Shown: positions 1 to 42,732 of the stretch, piece after piece
Layout: each line of letters begins with the position of its first letter
How positions within the stretch are numbered: position 1 is the first letter of the stretch
Virus record (IMG/VR): IMGVR_UViG_3300043219_000113
Location: 1 to 42,732 of that record
Source: a virus
Reading direction: 5' to 3' (one strand)
DNA length: 42,732 bases
Notes under the pieces: generated by a model
Database searches by the model: none
Told to the model about the DNA's origin: nothing
The model's input: the letters and a program-made list of their open reading frames with translations, nothing else
Position numbers and translations under genes: made by a program

Positions 1-396
1 GCGCAAGTCGGCAGAGCGCAAGTCGGCATAGCTCAAGTTGGCAGAGCGCAAGTCGGCAGAGCGCAAGTCGGCATAGCTCAAGTCGGCAGAGCGCAAGTTG
101 GCAGAGCGCAAGTTGGCAGAGCGCAAGTCGGCAGAGCGCAAGTTGGCAGAGCGCAAGTCGGCAGAGCGCAAGTCGGCATAGCTCAAGTTGGCAGAGCGCA
201 AGTCGGCAGAGCGCAAGTCGGCATAGCTCAAGTCGGCAGAGCGCAAGTCGGCAGAGCGCAAGTTGGCAGAGCGCAAGTTGGCAGAGCGCAAGTCGGCATA
301 GCGCAAGTTGGCCCTAGTCCCTCCCTCCTCGTCTCGCAACCATTTGCCATGAAGCTCAACGATTGAATTTAGCTCTTCTTTTGTGAATTTTTTCAT
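1..396 (-). CDS. Pentapeptide-repeat protein, N-terminal part (gene crosses the contig ends)
   Basis: This is the 5' part of a leftward gene that runs off base 1 and resumes at the right end. The start at 396 is preceded by AAGGAAGG. Residues 1-28 form a helical leader with the motif FTKEELNSIVELHGKWL, and residues 29-132 are about 21 tandem A(D/N)L(R/S)(S/Y) pentapeptides. Such repeats fold into a right-handed quadrilateral beta-helix. Some family members (Qnr, MfpA) mimic DNA and bind gyrase, but most phage members have no known role. The 15-bp units vary at essentially three positions. Merging the end overlap gcgc gives 858 bp, 285 aa, ending at 42267. The copy number may be miscounted by assembly. 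A leftward promoter lies upstream at 735-763. Confidence 0.9.
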   Translation of the reverse strand, partial: MKKFTKEELNSIVELHGKWLRDEEGGTRANLRYADLRSANLRSANLRSADLRSADLSYADLRSADLRSANLSYADLRSADLRSANLRSADLRSANLRSANLRSADLSYADLRSADLRSANLSYADLRSADLR

Positions 397-4059: not shown

Positions 4060-4272
4060 CTAAACAGGGCATAAACCATCCAGCCATTTACGCTCTTGAA
4101 CGCTCAATCCTGATACTTTCCGCTGATTACCACAGGCTGGACAAGAGCATGGTGTTGGTGTGTTTACGGCCTTTGATAGACATTCAGACTCATTGATTAA
4201 ATCCCTTCCCCAATGTCGGCGCCGGTTATGCTTTAAGCGTTCTCGGTGATGTCGCCTTTCTGCAATACTCAT
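4060..4272 (-). CDS. Basic CSCxxCGN-motif phage protein
   Basis: This 70-aa protein has a very basic first third (MSIAERRHHRERLKHNRRRHWG) and a central TPTPCSCPACGNQRK motif. It recalls a widespread family of short phage and bacterial proteins with a TPxxCSCxxCGNxR signature and no known function. The cysteines probably bind zinc, and the basic arm suggests nucleic acid contact. The ribosome-binding site is weak, so expression may depend on the upstream gene at 4308. Confidence 0.65.
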   Translation of the reverse strand: MSIAERRHHRERLKHNRRRHWGRDLINESECLSKAVNTPTPCSCPACGNQRKVSGLSVQERKWLDGLCPV

Positions 4273-4307
4273 ATTTATTTACCATAGGGTTGAATAAGGG
4301 GGTTTAA

Positions 4308-4547
4308 TCAAGGTTTGATTCCATTACCCACTCCCCTGCATTGAGTTTCGCCAACTACTTCCCTTGATAGGTAGCTAGGATTATCTTTACCGTCGCGGAT
4401 ATCACGTAAAGCGTTCATTGCAGTATCGCGCCATTTAATAACATGCCTGAAGTTTTTGGTTTGCCACTTCACTAACTTATTTAACCGCGCTATCTCCCTC
4501 CCCTGAGATTCGCAAGTTCTTTCAAGCGCTCGAAAATGCTCTTCCAT
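4308..4547 (-). CDS. Hypothetical coiled-coil protein, 79 aa
   Basis: Residues 1-50 form a long charged helix with coiled-coil spacing (FRALERTCESQGREIARLNKL). GGGAGA precedes the start, and an extended -10 promoter lies about 25 bp upstream. It is the first gene of a four-gene leftward cluster. Confidence 0.65.
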   Translation of the reverse strand: MEEHFRALERTCESQGREIARLNKLVKWQTKNFRHVIKWRDTAMNALRDIRDGKDNPSYLSREVVGETQCRGVGNGIKP

Positions 4548-4569
4548 AATTATCTCCCAATTAACCCTT

Positions 4570-4578
4570 ATTATACCA
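4570..4578 (-). promoter_or_regulatory. Leftward extended -10 promoter (TGGTATAAT)
   Basis: On the minus strand the sequence TGGTATAAT is a perfect extended -10 element, with no good -35. It lies 23 bp before the gene at 4547 and would start the 4547-3764 transcript. Confidence 0.6.
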
Positions 4579-4643
4579 AACTAAGTGTAAATATTCACGG
4601 ATAAAGCCACATGTGGGATTAGCTGTAGATTATTTATTTGACA

Positions 4644-4681
4644 ATAAGCCCCTTTAAACCCCAATAAGGCGGATAAGCCCC
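4644..4681. repeat. Two ATAAGCCCC direct repeats
   Basis: ATAAGCCCC occurs at 4644-4652 and 4673-4681 (29 bp apart), with a related CCAATAAGG between. Short spaced repeats in a gene-free region can be protein-binding sites or replication iterons. With only two copies neither role can be argued strongly. Confidence 0.35.
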
Positions 4682-4698
4682 GATAACACACAAATACC

Positions 4699-4727
4699 TT
4701 GTGCATTGGACTGTATAAGTCTATATT
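4699..4727 (+). promoter_or_regulatory. Rightward promoter for a non-coding RNA (TTGTGC-17-TATATT)
   Basis: TTGTGC (4699-4704) and TATATT (4722-4727) are exactly 17 nt apart. Transcription would begin near 4734, just before a short GCGT/ACGC hairpin and the long terminator stem, with no coding frame downstream. Confidence 0.5.
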
Positions 4728-4733
4728 AGTGCT

Positions 4734-4865
4734 TGTAGGCGTGTAGGAACGCTGAACAGGAATAGAGAAAGGGTCAATAAGTTCAGGTTTTAGAGAGGCA
4801 AGGTTAATATTCCTACTTCTCTATTCCACCCCAATCTCTAGGGTCTGAATTTATTGGCCTTTTTT
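4734..4865 (+). ncRNA. Candidate small RNA with long terminator stem and loop-complementary 5' strand
   Basis: After a small GCGT/ACGC hairpin (4739-4752), bases 4769-4796 can pair almost without interruption with 4835-4862. The core is GGTCAATAAGTTCAG with CTGAATTTATTGGCC, extended by G-U pairs and TAGAGA/TCTCTA. TTTTTT (4860-4865) follows, giving an intrinsic terminator. The 11-nt strand GGAATAGAGAA (4759-4769) is perfectly complementary to TTCTCTATTCC (4817-4827) inside the apical loop, so the RNA could form a pseudoknot or an alternative fold. No open frame of note lies inside. The family was not recognised. Confidence 0.6.
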
Positions 4866-5190
4866 GTGTCTGTTGGTTTGATTTCGGGGCGGTCAATTAA
4901 AGACTAAAAGCTCCTTAACTAAATATTCGCCAGCAGACACAATCCCTCCTTTAGCCTTCCTGAGTCTGTACAGGGGTTGTAATTGTTAGTTAAAAGCTAA
5001 CTTGATCGCTCGCTACCTTCAGGGGCAGTTATTAACCCTGTACAGATTCTATCTTTAAGTACGCCTACCGAGTTGTTATTGATGAGAGTAAAGAAGGTAA
5101 GCTATTTCATCCCGTTTCTGCGGTCAAGATAGAAGCCTTGCTGGTGAGTCACATACTTTAAACAAGCGGGTTTGAGTCCCGAGGCCAGCA
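4865..5190 (+). ncRNA. Candidate multi-domain structured RNA
   Basis: Four consecutive inverted-repeat domains fill this gene-free stretch. The first is TTGTGTCTGTTGG (4865-4877) with CCAGCAGACACAA (4932-4944), one G-U pair. The second is TCTGTACAGGG (4965-4975) with CCCTGTACAGA (5036-5046), containing a GTTAG/CTAAC hairpin. The third is TTCTATCTT (5047-5055) with AAGATAGAA (5126-5134), containing ACCG/CGGT and GATGA/TCATC. The fourth is TGCTGG (5139-5144) with CCAGCA (5185-5190), containing a T-arm-like hairpin (5167-5181). Domains two and three abut exactly. The location beside phage tRNAs recalls large phage RNAs such as GOLLD and ROOL. Membership was not established. Confidence 0.5.
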
Positions 5191-5206
5191 CTCTCTTCAA
5201 TAGCAA

Positions 5207-5218
5207 CTCCCAGTCCAT
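5207..5218 (+). repeat. CTCCCAGTCCAT repeat, copy 1
   Basis: CTCCCAGTCCAT here is repeated exactly at 5791-5802. CAGTCCATATAAG (5211-5223) is repeated exactly at 5414-5426. The copies follow the structured domain, the 58-aa gene and the tRNA pair, so they mark unit boundaries. Function unknown. Confidence 0.5.
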
Positions 5219-5232
5219 ATAAGGAAAGAAAG

Positions 5233-5409
5233 ATGGCGAGCGATAAAGTTACTGTGTTTTGTCCAGAGTGCAAAGAGGAGCAGTTTATTGTCACAATAAC
5301 TGATTCTGGTAGCGGCCCGGATGAATGGGGAACTTGCCACTGGTTTTATGGTGATGGCGTGTGTTCAGAATGCGGATACAAAGGTGATTATTCAGATAGC
5401 AGCCATTAA
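5233..5409 (+). CDS. Zinc-ribbon protein, 58 aa, inside the RNA-rich region
   Basis: The product has CPEC at residues 10-13 and CSEC at 44-47, a treble-clef or zinc-ribbon arrangement, with acidic linkers. AAGGAAAGAAAG gives a good ribosome-binding site. It is the only convincing gene between 4548 and 6233 and lies between structured RNA domains and the tRNAs. It could act with those RNAs, but nothing in the sequence proves it. Confidence 0.65.
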   Translation: MASDKVTVFCPECKEEQFIVTITDSGSGPDEWGTCHWFYGDGVCSECGYKGDYSDSSH

Positions 5410-5413
5410 GCAT

Positions 5414-5426
5414 CAGTCCATATAAG
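5414..5426 (+). repeat. CAGTCCATATAAG repeat, copy 2
   Basis: This is identical over 13 bp to 5211-5223 and starts 5 bp after the stop of the 58-aa gene. It is followed by a small ATTGT-TGG-ACAAT hairpin (5430-5442). Confidence 0.45.
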
Positions 5427-5467
5427 ACATTGTTGGACAATAGAAAGAGTATTTGCTATATTGGTTG

Positions 5468-5528
5468 TGCTGGGTGCAAGTCATCGTACCCAAGAAAGAG
5501 GTTTCCCTAAAGTTCACCTCTCCCAGCA
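5468..5528 (+). ncRNA. tRNA-like 61-nt structured element
   Basis: TGCTGGG (5468-5474) pairs with CCCAGCA (5522-5528) like an acceptor stem. Inside, AGAGGT (5497-5502) pairs with ACCTCT (5516-5521), leaving a 13-nt loop. GGGT/ACCC can compete with the outer stem. No anticodon arm or D arm could be fitted, so this is not called a tRNA. The closing helix UGCUGG/CCAGCA recurs at 5139/5185 and, with one G-U pair, at 4872/4932. Confidence 0.4.
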
Positions 5529-5553
5529 TCCGAATTACAAAAGAACTTAGGCG

Positions 5554-5616
5554 GATTAAAAGCAACTTTAGAGTATAGATTTACATTTCACATTATACCC
5601 TAAAACCGTTTTAATC
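5554..5616 (+). ncRNA. Long hairpin before the tRNA pair
   Basis: GATTAAAA (5554-5561) pairs with TTTTAATC (5609-5616). Inside it, TAGAGTATA (5569-5577) pairs with TATACCCTA (5594-5602) with one A-C mismatch. It ends 14 bp before tRNA-Phe, so it may be part of the precursor or a processing signal. Confidence 0.45.
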
Positions 5617-5629
5617 GAGTTGTTATTGT

Positions 5630-5704
5630 GCACTTGTAGCTGAGACAGATTAGCGTGTGTCTGAAAAACACAAGAGATTGGAGCGTTACCAATCGAGTGC
5701 ACCA
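5630..5704 (+). tRNA. tRNA-Phe (GAA), atypical T- and D-loops
   Basis: The cloverleaf is clear. The acceptor GCACTTG/CGAGTGC (one G-U) is followed by A and encoded CCA (5702-5704). The D stem is GCT/AGC. The anticodon stem TGTGT/ACACA has loop CTGAAAA and anticodon GAA at 5663-5665. The T stem is ATTGG/CCAAT. The T-loop is AGCGTTA instead of TTCRANN, and the D-loop (GAGACAGATT) lacks the GG pair, so both partners of the usual elbow contacts are altered. It could be functional but divergent, or decaying. Only 4 nt separate it from tRNA-Cys, so they share a precursor. Confidence 0.7.
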
Positions 5705-5708
5705 AACA

Positions 5709-5783
5709 GGGTGATTGGCTGAATGGTAAGGCCGCGATCTGCAACATCGATGCTCAGTGGTTCGATTCCACTATCACCCTCCA
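5709..5783 (+). tRNA. tRNA-Cys (GCA)
   Basis: The acceptor GGGTGAT/ATCACCC has discriminator T and encoded CCA (5781-5783). The D arm GGC...GCC has GG in the loop. The anticodon stem CGAT/ATCG encloses loop CTGCAAC, anticodon GCA. The T stem AGTGG/CCACT has the normal loop TTCGATT. It is directly downstream of tRNA-Phe. Phage tRNAs usually offset codon-use differences or host tRNA cleavage. Confidence 0.85.
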
Positions 5784-5790
5784 ATAACAT

Positions 5791-5802
5791 CTCCCAGTCC
5801 AT
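5791..5802 (+). repeat. CTCCCAGTCCAT repeat, copy 3
   Basis: This is identical to 5207-5218 and lies 7 bp after the CCA end of tRNA-Cys. The stretch from here to 5867 holds no gene. Confidence 0.5.
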
Positions 5803-5867
5803 TAGACGCAGTAACAATTGACACTGGCGAAAAAGCAACTGTTATCCAAGACCATTAGGAAACACCT

Positions 5868-5973
5868 ATATTATTAATAACGTTAGAGCGCGGATAAAGC
5901 AGTGTAAGTGCAGGGCTTGGGTTGATCTCCCTACAAGGAATGTAAATAAGATGCTGCATACCGTTAATAATAT
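5868..5973 (+). ncRNA. Structured gene-free segment closed by a 10-bp inverted repeat
   Basis: ATATTATTAA (5868-5877) is perfectly complementary to TTAATAATAT (5964-5973). With a 2-nt bulge the stem extends to AACG/CGTT. Inside are GCAG/CTGC and AGGG/CCCT pairings around GGGCTTGGG, which resembles the motif copied at 5985 and 8210. No coding frame was found here. Confidence 0.4.
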
Positions 5974-5984
5974 CTGTAAAGCAA

Positions 5985-6028
5985 AGAGTATTGGCATGGG
6001 CTATGTAGCGTCCCTGCACAAACGCTCT
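5985..6028 (+). ncRNA. Duplicated structured motif, copy 1
   Basis: This element begins AGAGTATTGGCAT and ends CGCTCT, and folds as AGAG/CTCT closing a GGCA..GGG/CCC..TGC hairpin. It aligns almost fully with 8210-8252 apart from three single-base indels and one or two substitutions. It lies upstream of the attenuator-like element and the SPFH gene. Confidence 0.5.
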
Positions 6029-6080
6029 TTATGTTTGCTATGTTTTTCAATAAGTTAGAGTAAAATTATACAGGAAATGC

Positions 6081-6108
6081 TTGCATAATTAAATAAAATG
6101 ACTATTAT
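6081..6108 (+). promoter_or_regulatory. Candidate promoter (TTGCAT-16-TATTAT)
   Basis: TTGCAT and TATTAT are 16 nt apart and would start transcription near 6115, a few bases before the folded element at 6121-6216. The -10 is good and the -35 weak. Confidence 0.35.
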
Positions 6109-6114
6109 TATTAC

Positions 6115-6216
6115 TGGGTCGTGGTTGTCCCTTAACGAAGCTAAACAAGCTCTGATCTTTATCCTTTTTTGACTGCTTCGGTCACAACCACAAGGGATAG
6201 GGGTCAGAGCTTTTTT
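6115..6216 (+). promoter_or_regulatory. Attenuator or riboswitch-like leader of the SPFH gene
   Basis: Bases 6147-6167 pair with 6192-6212 in a continuous 21-bp stem with several G-U pairs (outer part AAGCTCTGA/TCAGAGCTT). TTTTTT (6211-6216) follows, a strong intrinsic terminator 18 bp before the next start codon. The upstream strand holds GTGGTTGT (6121-6128) and CGAAGC (6136-6141), perfectly complementary to ACAACCAC (6184-6191) and GCTTCG (6175-6180) in the apical loop. A pseudoknot or a competing fold could set read-through into the SPFH operon. It could instead be a separate small RNA. The topology matches 4734-4865. No known riboswitch class was recognised. Confidence 0.6.
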
Positions 6217-6233
6217 ATTATCTGGAGATTAGA

Positions 6234-7157
6234 ATGAAGATTAAATTAATTGCAGTAATTTCAGTGTTAATGGTTTTGGTGGGTTGCGGTACAAAGGTCG
6301 AGGTTCCTCCGGCTAATGTCGGGAAGATTTTAACTAAGAACGGCTTTGCGCCCGAAACGGTCCCGCCTAGTAAGTTCAGGCTTCCTGCCTGCTTGTCATA
6401 TTGTGATCGCCTGGTATTGCTTGAGGCTAGCGATAATAAGCTTGTCGAGCTGTTAACGGTCTTTATGCCGAAGGATAAGCTGAACATTACCGTTGACATT
6501 AGGGGGACGTACTCTATACCCACCTCCAAAAAATCTGTTGACTCGATTTACAGTAAGGTCGTGGCGCAGGAGATGGGGAATTCGCTATCAGCTATTACAG
6601 CTAAATCTGTTTATGCTACTTATGGTCAGCAGGCCGTTAGAGGAATTGTCCGCAGCGAAATAACTAAATATTCTATTAGCGAGGTCTTGGCTCAAAGAGA
6701 GGTAATCGGCCAGAATATTCACGCCGCTATTGCTGCAAAACTGGCGGCAACCAATACGCCAATTTCGATCAGTCGTTTTGAGCTTGCTAACATTCAGCCG
6801 CCAGCGGTTATTGTTAAAGCTCAAGAATCCGCTAAAGAGCGTGAGATTGATATTCAAAAAGCTGAGGCAGAGGCACAGATTGATCTAGTGAAGGCTGAGA
6901 GGGCGCTGGAAATAGCCAAGAAGGATCGTCTGGTTAAGCGAGAGGAAGCGGAGTCAATCGCAGAGCAGAATCGAATAGCTGCGAAATCCATCACCCCCCA
7001 GTTGCTGGCTTACAGAAAGCTTGAGACAGCTGAAAGAATTTATACCGCCTTAGCGAAATCAAATAACGTGGTTATTGTTCCGGCTGATTCATCTGGGTTT
7101 AGCAACATTAATGATAATGCCGTTCTGGCCAAGTTAATAGGAAGGGAGTTTAAGTAA
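6234..7157 (+). CDS. SPFH/band-7 (prohibitin-like) lipoprotein
   Basis: This 307-aa protein has a lipoprotein signal (residues 1-18) with lipobox LVGC, acylated Cys18. A band-7 domain follows at about 25-210 (FMPKDKLNITVDIRGTYSI...VLAQREVIGQNIHAAI...ISISRFELANIQPP). Next is a charged coiled-coil (about 195-250) and a short C-terminal region. SPFH proteins form ring or cage assemblies on membranes; HflK/HflC restrain FtsH. Lipid anchoring would place the domain in the periplasm. Its mRNA starts after an attenuator-like terminator. The next gene overlaps as TAATG and encodes a membrane protein, probably its partner. The role in infection is unknown. Confidence 0.8.
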   Translation: MKIKLIAVISVLMVLVGCGTKVEVPPANVGKILTKNGFAPETVPPSKFRLPACLSYCDRLVLLEASDNKLVELLTVFMPKDKLNITVDIRGTYSIPTSKKSVDSIYSKVVAQEMGNSLSAITAKSVYATYGQQAVRGIVRSEITKYSISEVLAQREVIGQNIHAAIAAKLAATNTPISISRFELANIQPPAVIVKAQESAKEREIDIQKAEAEAQIDLVKAERALEIAKKDRLVKREEAESIAEQNRIAAKSITPQLLAYRKLETAERIYTALAKSNNVVIVPADSSGFSNINDNAVLAKLIGREFK

Positions 7158-8209: not shown

Positions 8210-8252
8210 AGAGTATTGGCATAGGGCTTGTAGCATCCCTGCCAAACGCTCT
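8210..8252 (+). promoter_or_regulatory. Duplicated structured motif, copy 2
   Basis: This segment aligns with 5985-6028 with few changes and keeps the AGAG/CTCT and GGCA..GGG/CCC..TGCC pairings. It lies 34 bp before the gene at 8287, so a 5' leader role is plausible. Confidence 0.5.
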
Positions 8253-8286
8253 ATAGGACAATTAACTTTAATTATTGGAGATTAGG

Positions 8287-8892
8287 ATGACAAACTTATA
8301 CAAATTTGAGAGCCTCAAGGATTTTATGCAGCAAAGGATTGATAGTTATATTTTATCTCTTGATCTTAATATTCCTGACAAGATGTACAGGATATCACAC
8401 AGAAAAATAGAAAGTGTTGAGTGTACTGGCGTTAGGTACTTCGACAAAATCCTACTGGGGATTCCCGAGTATAACAAAAGGCCATCTACAAAAGCGGTTG
8501 AAAAAATAAGAGAGGTACACGATAAGTTCATGTCAGAAGAGATGGATATTAATATGGTTAGGATAGGATTTAAGTCATCTGGTGGAAGCTTTAGCACAAG
8601 CTGGTCAGATAGCATAGATGAATACAATACCGGCAATTACTCAACTGATTTGCCAGCTTTAAAAGTCGAGCTTGAGGATCAGATAGAAGAATATAACAAG
8701 GTTTATATTGCAAAGGATGGGCAGTTTAATTGCGGGTATTGCCGAAAAGCTATTGATAATTCCGGAAAAGTAACAAGCAAGCTGATATATCAAAGCAGGG
8801 ATAATTGGGGGAAGGCCTTTGTGAAAACAGAAATGGTGGATTACTGCTCTGGGCAATGTGCTCACCACAATCAATGTGCGCATGAAGGCTAA
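8287..8892 (+). CDS. Hypothetical protein with C-terminal cysteine cluster, 201 aa
   Basis: The ATG at 8287 follows GGAGATTAGG; the TTG at 8275 lies inside that site and is not used. Residues 1-140 are charged and helical with no recognised fold. Residues 149-201 carry CGYC, CSGQC and further Cys/His residues, probably a zinc-binding domain. It follows copy 2 of the structured motif. Confidence 0.6.
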   Translation: MTNLYKFESLKDFMQQRIDSYILSLDLNIPDKMYRISHRKIESVECTGVRYFDKILLGIPEYNKRPSTKAVEKIREVHDKFMSEEMDINMVRIGFKSSGGSFSTSWSDSIDEYNTGNYSTDLPALKVELEDQIEEYNKVYIAKDGQFNCGYCRKAIDNSGKVTSKLIYQSRDNWGKAFVKTEMVDYCSGQCAHHNQCAHEG

Positions 8893-9007
8893 ATTATTAA
8901 AGACCTCACAGCAAGGAACCTATTTACAACGTATTTAAGGATAATAAGTATATCGGCAGTACAAGGAATAAGGCGGAAGTAAACGATTTAACCAGAGGAT
9001 AATAGAA

Positions 9008-9445
9008 ATGAAGGTTGCATTCAACGGTTGTTTTGGCGGGTTTAGTTTGAGTCCTCTAGCTGAGACCGAGTACAGAAAGAAAAAAGGAATAACTCTAACT
9101 TGGTATGAAGGCGTTGGCGATTATCCATATGAGAGCTATGTGAAGGTTGCCGACGTCAGTGCTTTGTCAGAGAGGGGGCGTAGTATATTTTCCTTATCAG
9201 CAGCAATTGAGGATTTGGGGGATAGGATAACTAAAATTCCAGAGGGAAGTGCTTTTTATGAGTCTTGGTATGGGTCAGAAAATAGGAGTGATCCAGATTT
9301 AATAGCAGTTATAGAGAGTCTTGGGGATGCCTCAAGCGGGGTGCACGCCAACTTAATGATCAAGGAAATACCGGACGGTGCCGAGTTTGAAATTGACGAA
9401 TATGACGGTAATGAGACGGTAGTTCCTCCGCGTCAGGTCTGGTGA
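9008..9445 (+). CDS. Conserved phage protein of the CFGGFxLS type, 145 aa
   Basis: The opening MKVAFNGCFGGFSLS, the central SDPDLIAVIESLG and the ending IPDGAEFEIDEYDGNE match a small protein family found in many tailed phages. These have no known function. It is probably cytoplasmic. The spacer 8893-9007 holds no gene. Confidence 0.65.
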   Translation: MKVAFNGCFGGFSLSPLAETEYRKKKGITLTWYEGVGDYPYESYVKVADVSALSERGRSIFSLSAAIEDLGDRITKIPEGSAFYESWYGSENRSDPDLIAVIESLGDASSGVHANLMIKEIPDGAEFEIDEYDGNETVVPPRQVW

Positions 9446-9489
9446 TCCATAAGGCAGGTATAAACACATTAATTAAAGAGGGTTAGACA

Positions 9490-42077: not shown

Positions 42078-42274
42078 TATTGCTTATCTCCAAAAGTTTC
42101 ACTACCGTTTAAATATCCCTTTAAAGAAGGGTTGCCAGTATAAGTACCATCAGGACGCTTCATTGATTCAGGCTCAAGCTCTCTAAAGTTTTCTTCAAAG
42201 TTATCGAAGATAGAAGGCCCATTGTTTTTAAGATCGTTCTCTAGCTCTTCTACTTCGGCTCTTGATTTAATCAT
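42077..42274 (-). CDS. Hypothetical acidic protein, 65 aa
   Basis: It overlaps the end of the pentapeptide gene by 8 bp and abuts the next gene. The product is acidic and helical (AEVEELENDLKNNGPSIFDNF), and its tail is glycine-rich. No family was recognised. Confidence 0.6.
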   Translation of the reverse strand: MIKSRAEVEELENDLKNNGPSIFDNFEENFRELEPESMKRPDGTYTGNPSLKGYLNGSETFGDKQ

Positions 42275-42732
42275 TGGTCTTATCCTCTTTTTTTACATAA
42301 GGCGTAGCAGGCGATACTTCGACAATTTTAAGAATGATATCTCTGTACTTTTTCCAAAAATCGCTTTCGTGGTCTTTCATTTCAAGCCAGTCACCAAAGC
42401 TTAATTGCGTACAACCAAATGCTATTGAGTCGGTGTTATAGGTTATTGAAAACTCACTTTCGATATGTAGTGACTTTATTTCAGACCCGTTTCCTACAGC
42501 GTTATTTATGTGAATAGAGCTCAAGTCGGCAGAGCTCAAGTCGGCAGAGCGCAAGTCGGCATAGCTCAAGTCGGCAGAGCGCAAGTCGGCAGAGCGCAAG
42601 TCGGCAGAGCGCAAGTTGGCAGAGCGCAAGTCGGCATAGCTCAAGTTGGCATAGCTCAAGTTGGCAGAGCGCAAGTCGGCATAGCGCAAGTAGGCATAGC
42701 TCAAGTCGGCAGAGCGAAAGTTGGCAGAGCGC
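42267..42732 (-). CDS. Pentapeptide-repeat protein, C-terminal part
   Basis: This is the continuation of the gene that starts at 396. About 14 further pentapeptides are followed by an 80-residue non-repeat end (IHINNAVGNGSEIKSLHIESEF...IAFGCTQLSFGDWLEMKDHE). The same end type (AVGN, IKS, IGC, W) is seen in other phage pentapeptide proteins. An internal ATG at 42704 is not the real start, since repeats continue beyond it to the contig edge. Near the edge the units AYLRY and ANFRS deviate from the main pattern. Confidence 0.88.
   Translation of the reverse strand, partial: RSANFRSADLSYAYLRYADLRSANLSYANLSYADLRSANLRSADLRSADLRSADLSYADLRSADLSSADLSSIHINNAVGNGSEIKSLHIESEFSITYNTDSIAFGCTQLSFGDWLEMKDHESDFWKKYRDIILKIVEVSPATPYVKKEDKTND

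Follow-up and report, generated by a model that had tools for sequence, protein, structure and literature searches.

A conserved phage RNA with a terminator-like stem and two further covarying helices, probably a switch ahead of a gene block

A 132-nt RNA element on the + strand of the window (the whole stretch of DNA that was analysed, a complete virus record from IMG/VR, 42,732 bases long) is probably an RNA switch, undescribed so far, that controls a phage gene block. From its sequence and surroundings, we give an even chance to the element being the 5′ leader of a late transcription unit with a conditional intrinsic terminator. Three helices, their compensatory conservation, strand specificity, a predicted folding order and the genomic position of the element were computed, and the coordinates of the features in the window are collected in Table 1.

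Results

Helices of the element

The first-pass annotation of this DNA had proposed that strands A1 (GGAATAGAGAA) and A2 (TTCTCTATTCC) form 11 perfect pairs, and A1 is indeed the perfect reverse complement of A2. A nearly continuous stem between B1 and B2, followed by six T residues, had also been described; this was confirmed as 28 uninterrupted pairs with a duplex energy of -33.7 kcal/mol, of which 7 are G-U by a hand count on both strands, and B2 extends three bases into the T-run (T6). The form of an intrinsic terminator is present, with T6 directly after the 28-pair stem. Many pairs in the upper part of B are U-G, and a small CCC...GGG hairpin (E) of the minimum-energy fold competes with this part.

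The sequence from 4734 to 4870 folded at -51.4 kcal/mol as against -32.4 kcal/mol for shuffled sequences (z = -5.1; none of 200 shuffles matched it). The A helix alone was moderately unusual, 11 pairs being reached by 1.8% of 2000 loop shuffles, and relatives of the RNA were searched for because this helix by itself was only mildly unusual. A third helix, C, was seen by eye: its strand C1 (GTAGGAA) is the loop of a 5′ hairpin, H1, and its strand C2 (TTCCTAC) directly precedes A2 in the apical region of the terminator.

Table 1. Coordinates, strand and evidence for the features of the window discussed in the text
Feature	Position	Strand	Evidence
Promoter-like site, TTGTGC - 17 nt - TATATT	4699..4727	+	8/12 sigma-70 consensus matches
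Conserved RNA element (leader or small RNA), 132 nt	4734..4865	+	Covariance model, 7 records; 0/200 shuffles (4734-4870)
5′ hairpin H1, GGCGU 4738-4742 / ACGCU 4749-4753	4738..4753	+	Fold; model alignment
C1, H1 loop, partner C2	4743..4749	+	7-8 pairs (five members) or 6-7 pairs (two divergent members)
A1	4759..4769	+	11 perfect pairs with A2; 8-14 pairs across 7/7 members
B1, 5′ strand of terminator-like stem	4769..4796	+	28 pairs with B2; 7 pairs changed on both sides (6-sequence alignment)
C2, partner C1	4810..4816	+	Pairing in members
A2, partner A1, or B1 3′ end in predicted minimum-energy fold	4817..4827	+	Fold, pairing
Alternative hairpin E, CCC 4830-4832 / GGG 4841-4843	4830..4843	+	Minimum-energy fold; CCC...GGG by eye in 7/7 members
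B2, 3′ strand of terminator-like stem	4835..4862	+	Pairing, model alignment
T6 run after GGCC	4860..4865	+	GGCCTTTTTT in 7/7 members
tRNA-sized hairpin element, closing stem GTGTCTGTTGGT / GCCAGCAGACAC	4866..4940	+	2/1000 shuffles; fold z -5.3
Two long-stem modules, 4962-5049 and 5070-5209	4962..5209	+	Fold; comparable ones elsewhere by eye
Two tRNA genes	5630..5783	+	Rfam tRNA 5630-5701 and 5709-5780; ARAGORN tRNA-Cys 5709-5783

Relatives of the RNA

The same RNA, of about 130 nt, was found in six further phage records, giving seven members (the window, G005, L030, L031, L032, L038 and L040). Among 12 records related to the window through the lipoprotein, portal or head protein, G005 was the sole carrier by DNA similarity; DNA matches in three others of the 12 had E values of 0.04 or worse and were taken as chance. 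A pattern of the conserved B strands retrieved L030, L031 and L032 and, again, G005; a gapped pattern retrieved the same four, and a relaxed pattern gave 22 matches, these four and 18 new ones. The first five members were used to build a covariance model, which scored L038 at 57.8 bits and L040 at 43.3 bits; the other 16 of the 18 new matches had no match to the model and were dropped as chance. A match in L035, a Verrucomicrobiales MAG, lay inside a long ORF and was rejected. As three homologues were found via the B sequence and two via a relaxed form of B, selection by the search accounts for part of the near-invariance of B; A and C lay outside the selection by the search patterns.

Besides weak opposite-strand matches that overlap it, the covariance model found one locus per record. 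It found no match in G011 (36 kb) or G006 (24 kb), both of which may be fragments, and none in Xanthomonas phage Kintu, where a GTAGGCG...GCGCC hairpin may be coincidence. Rfam release 15 gave no family match over the element in the window (at the gathering threshold, and for 4200-6300 also at E <=10), in L014, L030, L031, L032 and L034 (E <=5) or in L038 and L040 (E <=2); the L040 copy drew a sub-threshold match to MIR844 (24.3 bits vs a cut-off of 70). No DNA similar to that around the RNA in the window, L030 or L031 was found in the annotated phage collection, a piece of Kintu excepted. When the L032 stretch was used as a query, 1023 records matched over its tRNA part, the best 20 of the 1023 lying within query positions 156-331. 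The portions of the literature consulted contain no recognised description of this RNA.

When flanks of 2.5 kb were compared, the RNA was the main common stretch in most pairs of members, and G005 and L030 had common DNA also upstream and downstream of it. The portal of the window has only distant relatives in annotated phages, all 234 records being below 60% identity, and it had no match in the L030, L031, L032 and Kintu records in a search run without a positive control. The RNA recurs in phage records that differ in gene content and is likely to be a mobile or strongly selected module.

Conservation and covariation

The first-pass annotation had pointed to homologues with non-complementary A1 and A2 as the check on its proposal. 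Complementarity was kept in all seven members despite differing sequences, with 11, 13, 8, 10, 14, 9 and 10 pairs. In a permutation test that allowed any register (n = 7), the members' own A partners were matched by one of the 5040 assignments, which was the identity itself. The 8-pair A helix of L030 was, alone, not beyond shuffles (0.28). L038 and L040 have A helices of unrelated sequence. In each of the five other members A was longer than any other pairing of the apical loop with the 5′ side, and C was present in all five.

The C helix comprised 7, 7, 7, 7, 8, 6 and 7 pairs in the seven members. In its permutation test (n = 7), in which L030 and L031 have identical H1 loops, 4 of the 5040 assignments were as good by run length and 2 of the 5040 by energy. 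The topology of C is crossing in five members and nested with A in L038 and L040, where the C partner lies after A2 rather than before it. Changes on both sides were seen in each helix: column -5 of A carries G-C, A-U and U-A, and column 5 of C carries G-C, A-U and C-G. H1 was paired in 100% of alignment cells, with one-sided variation in three of its four modelled pairs. For B, whose strands are near-invariant in five members, the six-sequence model alignment (which excludes L040, as this member was beyond the E-value limit) showed two-sided changes in 7 pairs, with 97.3% of its cells paired; none of 500 shuffles equalled this.

A chance palindrome was ruled out by this comparative evidence, that is, by the permutation tests of A and C and the alignment of B. 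The + strand folded 11.1-21.7 kcal/mol better than its complement in all seven members, which also ruled out a palindrome at the DNA level or an RNA from the opposite strand; the complement folds worse because G-U pairs are lost on complementing. Protein coding was rejected, there being no ORF of at least 60 aa over 4734-4865 and the length differences between homologues not being multiples of three. A likeness of GGTTTTAGAGAGCAAGGTTAAA to the Cas9 guide scaffold was also rejected, the motif being absent from the divergent L038 and L040.

Predicted folding order

The order in which the helices might form was followed by nested prefix folding, a model that does not score pseudoknots. With the RNA ending at A2, the probability of A, P(A), was 0.77-0.98 in the seven members, and it was 0.00 in all seven once the GGCC before the T-run was present. 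Six nucleotides before the GGCC point, P(A) was 0.60-0.84 in the window, L030 and L032, 0.25 in L038 and 0.00-0.01 in G005, L031 and L040; in these last three, A was gone 6-12 nt before the base of the terminator was made. For the finished RNA at equilibrium, the B fold beat a forced A by 6-22 kcal/mol, and read-through would therefore depend on kinetic trapping or on a helper. When A was forced in the five close members, the fold still allowed a small hairpin of the B2 strand before the T-run.

The arrangement found is that of an attenuator: A and B are both conserved, and the earlier A is predicted to compete with the terminator, with exclusion between them in the nested model. Instead of being excluded, A may form a pseudoknot with a portion of B. 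A pseudoknot of full A and full B seems strained by a geometric estimate, as A1 and B1 touch and the linker between A2 and B2 is about 7 nt in the window. The proposal from the first pass, either a pseudoknot or two exclusive folds of which one terminates, fits the predicted formation of A early and B last in all seven members.

Promoter region and downstream tRNA-like array

A promoter belonging to the RNA itself had been placed at 4699-4727. A promoter-like sequence does lie there, on the + strand, and its match to the consensus is weak, 8 matches of 12 falling below the threshold of 9/12 set for the promoter scan. The window, L030, L031 and L032 have a -10-like hexamer whose end lies 5-10 nt upstream of the RNA, and G005 has a weaker GATAAC at the -10 position, as judged by eye. 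Small opposite-strand ORFs are found immediately upstream of where the RNA begins in L032 (6191-6436), L031 (2458-2706) and the window (4308-4547), so that the promoter region of these three looks divergent.

At the other end of the RNA, all seven members have a tRNA or tRNA-like element beginning 0-4 nt past the T-run, which leaves no room for a separate promoter after the T-run. In the window it is the tRNA-sized hairpin of Table 1, beginning at the base right after the T-run; L032 has a real tRNA-Pro at this position, and the elements of G005 and L030 have weak cloverleaf-like folds (z of -1.6 and -1.3). When the closing stems were compared with 1000 shuffles each, 2 shuffles were as good for the window, 4 for L040 and 100-602 for the others. 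A CCYTTCTAAA or CCTCCTTTA motif directly follows the closing stem in six of the seven members, L032 being the one without it. The stretch after the T-run in L031 (2927-2991) gave a sub-threshold match to the mascRNA family (25.3 bits vs a cut-off of 42.5).

Over the 370-850 nt downstream, long-stem modules fold in the window and in four other records, and they vary in number and content among records. Modules whose stems begin with GTCTG...CAGATT or ATGTGG...CCCTTCAT were seen by eye in G005, L030, L031, L032 and L040. Some recurrent modules hold stretches like the T-arm of tRNA, as does the module at 5070-5209 of the window. A 47-bp tRNA-like stretch of the window (5142-5188) is 93.8% identical to positions 42202-42249 of Kintu (PP313117.1; L034 2001-2048), where it lies in an unannotated intergenic region ahead of tRNAs and the endolysin. 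The array at 4866-5209 of the window may be a new ornate phage RNA.

Position relative to the late genes

In the window, the genes for terminase, portal and head protein are on the + strand and those for Erf and NinG on the - strand. Six of the seven records yielded a large terminase, five through phrog_2 and G014 through the L031 terminase ORFs, and in six of six it was on the strand of the RNA; none was found in G017. The terminase is downstream of the RNA by about 10.2 kb in G000, 9.4 kb in G013, 9.2 kb in G014 and 12.4 kb in G016; in G005 and G015 it is downstream only if the genome is circular. Between the RNA and the terminase, ORFs of at least 90 aa on the same and the opposite strand number 10:1 in the window and 7:2 in G014. 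With the terminase as the sole marker, the RNA lies at the head of the late genes. No match to the Q antiterminator families PF03589 and PF06530 was found in the seven records, which may be fragments, and the positive controls of these searches were detected; in a search with PF06323 its own positive control was silent.

Several other features of these records were observed. The terminase match of G013 (8217-9449) reads through two TAG codons and that of G016 (145-1074) through several stops; stop recoding, frame error or decay are possible causes. Repeats of a pentapeptide-repeat gene, on the - strand, lie at both ends of the window (1-310 and 42520-42732), and the genome may therefore be circular, probably cut or collapsed in this gene. 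Downstream of the tRNAs, at 6234-7157, is a lipoprotein-like gene (phrog_200); it has a relative at 66% in a phage record of 90 kb and others, more distant, in records of 116 and 156 kb.

Discussion

The favoured reading, a leader with a conditional terminator, implies the following course of events. RNA polymerase would start just upstream of H1, and in the emerging RNA A1:A2 would form first, aided by C1:C2, enclosing B1 in its loop. Once the last bases of B2 are out, B1:B2 with T6 would either displace A or be blocked by it. Should B win, transcription would end and an RNA of about 130 nt would be released; should the A/C fold hold, polymerase would read through to the tRNA-like array and the late genes. 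The balance would be tipped by an outside signal, such as pausing, a phage protein or a contact that the RNA itself makes with polymerase. From sequence and folding we infer that the promoter works, that B terminates, that A and C oppose termination and that an outside signal decides between the two outcomes.

An alternative is a free-standing small RNA with its own promoter, as described in the first pass. In such an RNA, the terminator made by B would be ordinary and unregulated, with A and C forming a compact pseudoknotted body that acts in trans, for instance by binding a host or phage protein. The strong fold, the upstream -10-like sequence and T6 do delimit a unit of the size of a small RNA, the B strands are near-invariant in five members as for a protein-binding duplex, and each record has a single locus. 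However, an independent small RNA would need neither of two features: the tRNA or tRNA-like element that begins 0-4 nt past the T-run in seven of seven members, and the place ahead of the late genes that is common to phages of different gene content. Because that tRNA-like element adjoins the T-run and the terminase is on the same strand, the setting looks like that of an operon leader rather than of an isolated small RNA, and we regard the latter as unlikely. It is less probable still that a much longer structured RNA, in the manner of GOLLD or ROOL, has the element as its 5′ domain, with T6 as a linker and a 3′ end made by tRNA processing rather than termination. The long-stem modules over 370-850 nt downstream in the window and four records point in this direction, as do the closing stem after T6 in all seven members and the CCYTTCTAAA-type motif next to it in six. 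GOLLD and ROOL are described as phage RNAs of large, ornate structure near tRNA islands (PMC12286853); the element likewise is a phage RNA near tRNAs with long-stem modules downstream. Unlike them, it is small (132 nt), has a terminator-like end and matches neither of their Rfam models; moreover, GGCCTTTTTT after a long stem in all seven members has the appearance of a terminator, and the downstream modules differ in number and content between records.

The remaining alternative is a late leader of the Q type, in which a phage antiterminator would load near the promoter and carry polymerase through the terminator, with A and C only tuning the folding. The lambda pR'-tR' late leader (6S RNA), which is controlled by Q, is a short terminated leader heading the late transcription unit, and the element, as a predicted short terminated leader with a promoter-proximal terminator ahead of late genes, has the same placement. 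It differs from the lambda leader in its three covarying helices, some of them crossing, and in that the seven records have no recognisable PF03589 or PF06530 protein, with the controls detected; a Q system alone would also not explain the covarying A and C. The records may nevertheless encode an antiterminator of some other, unrecognised family. A Q-type leader thus seems very unlikely, the least probable of these readings. By the tests run on these sequences, the element is not a Q-type leader, and by Rfam it is not GOLLD or ROOL.

The preferred reading, a leader that decides termination by its own folding, has other counterparts. Attenuators and riboswitch-type leaders such as the T-box share with the element mutually exclusive helices of which one is terminator-like, on the nested model; they differ in that the element has no known ligand or sensor and no Rfam match. 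By analogy, the element would work like an attenuator, and it sits at the place of the lambda pR'-tR' leader. The put RNA of phage HK022 is not known to contain the terminator under its control. Compared by description, put is, as the element is predicted to be, a phage leader RNA whose own structure affects termination. It differs in acting on early transcription and by contact with polymerase, which it binds to suppress both pausing and termination (PMC9378689).

A further step would be to see in the element an RNA-only gate on the late unit: through its own terminator and helices C, A and B it would settle, with no Q-type protein involved, whether the RNA is released or polymerase reads on, and it would lead into a new ornate tRNA-like array. 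This would be a new class of phage RNA switch, and we hold it as a doubtful possibility. In phages that have no recognisable Q protein, the means by which late genes are timed is usually unknown. A leader that is conserved and has its terminator interlocked with two covarying helices would be a testable candidate for RNA-only control, and the neighbouring tRNA-like element and long-stem modules may be a second unexplained RNA structure.
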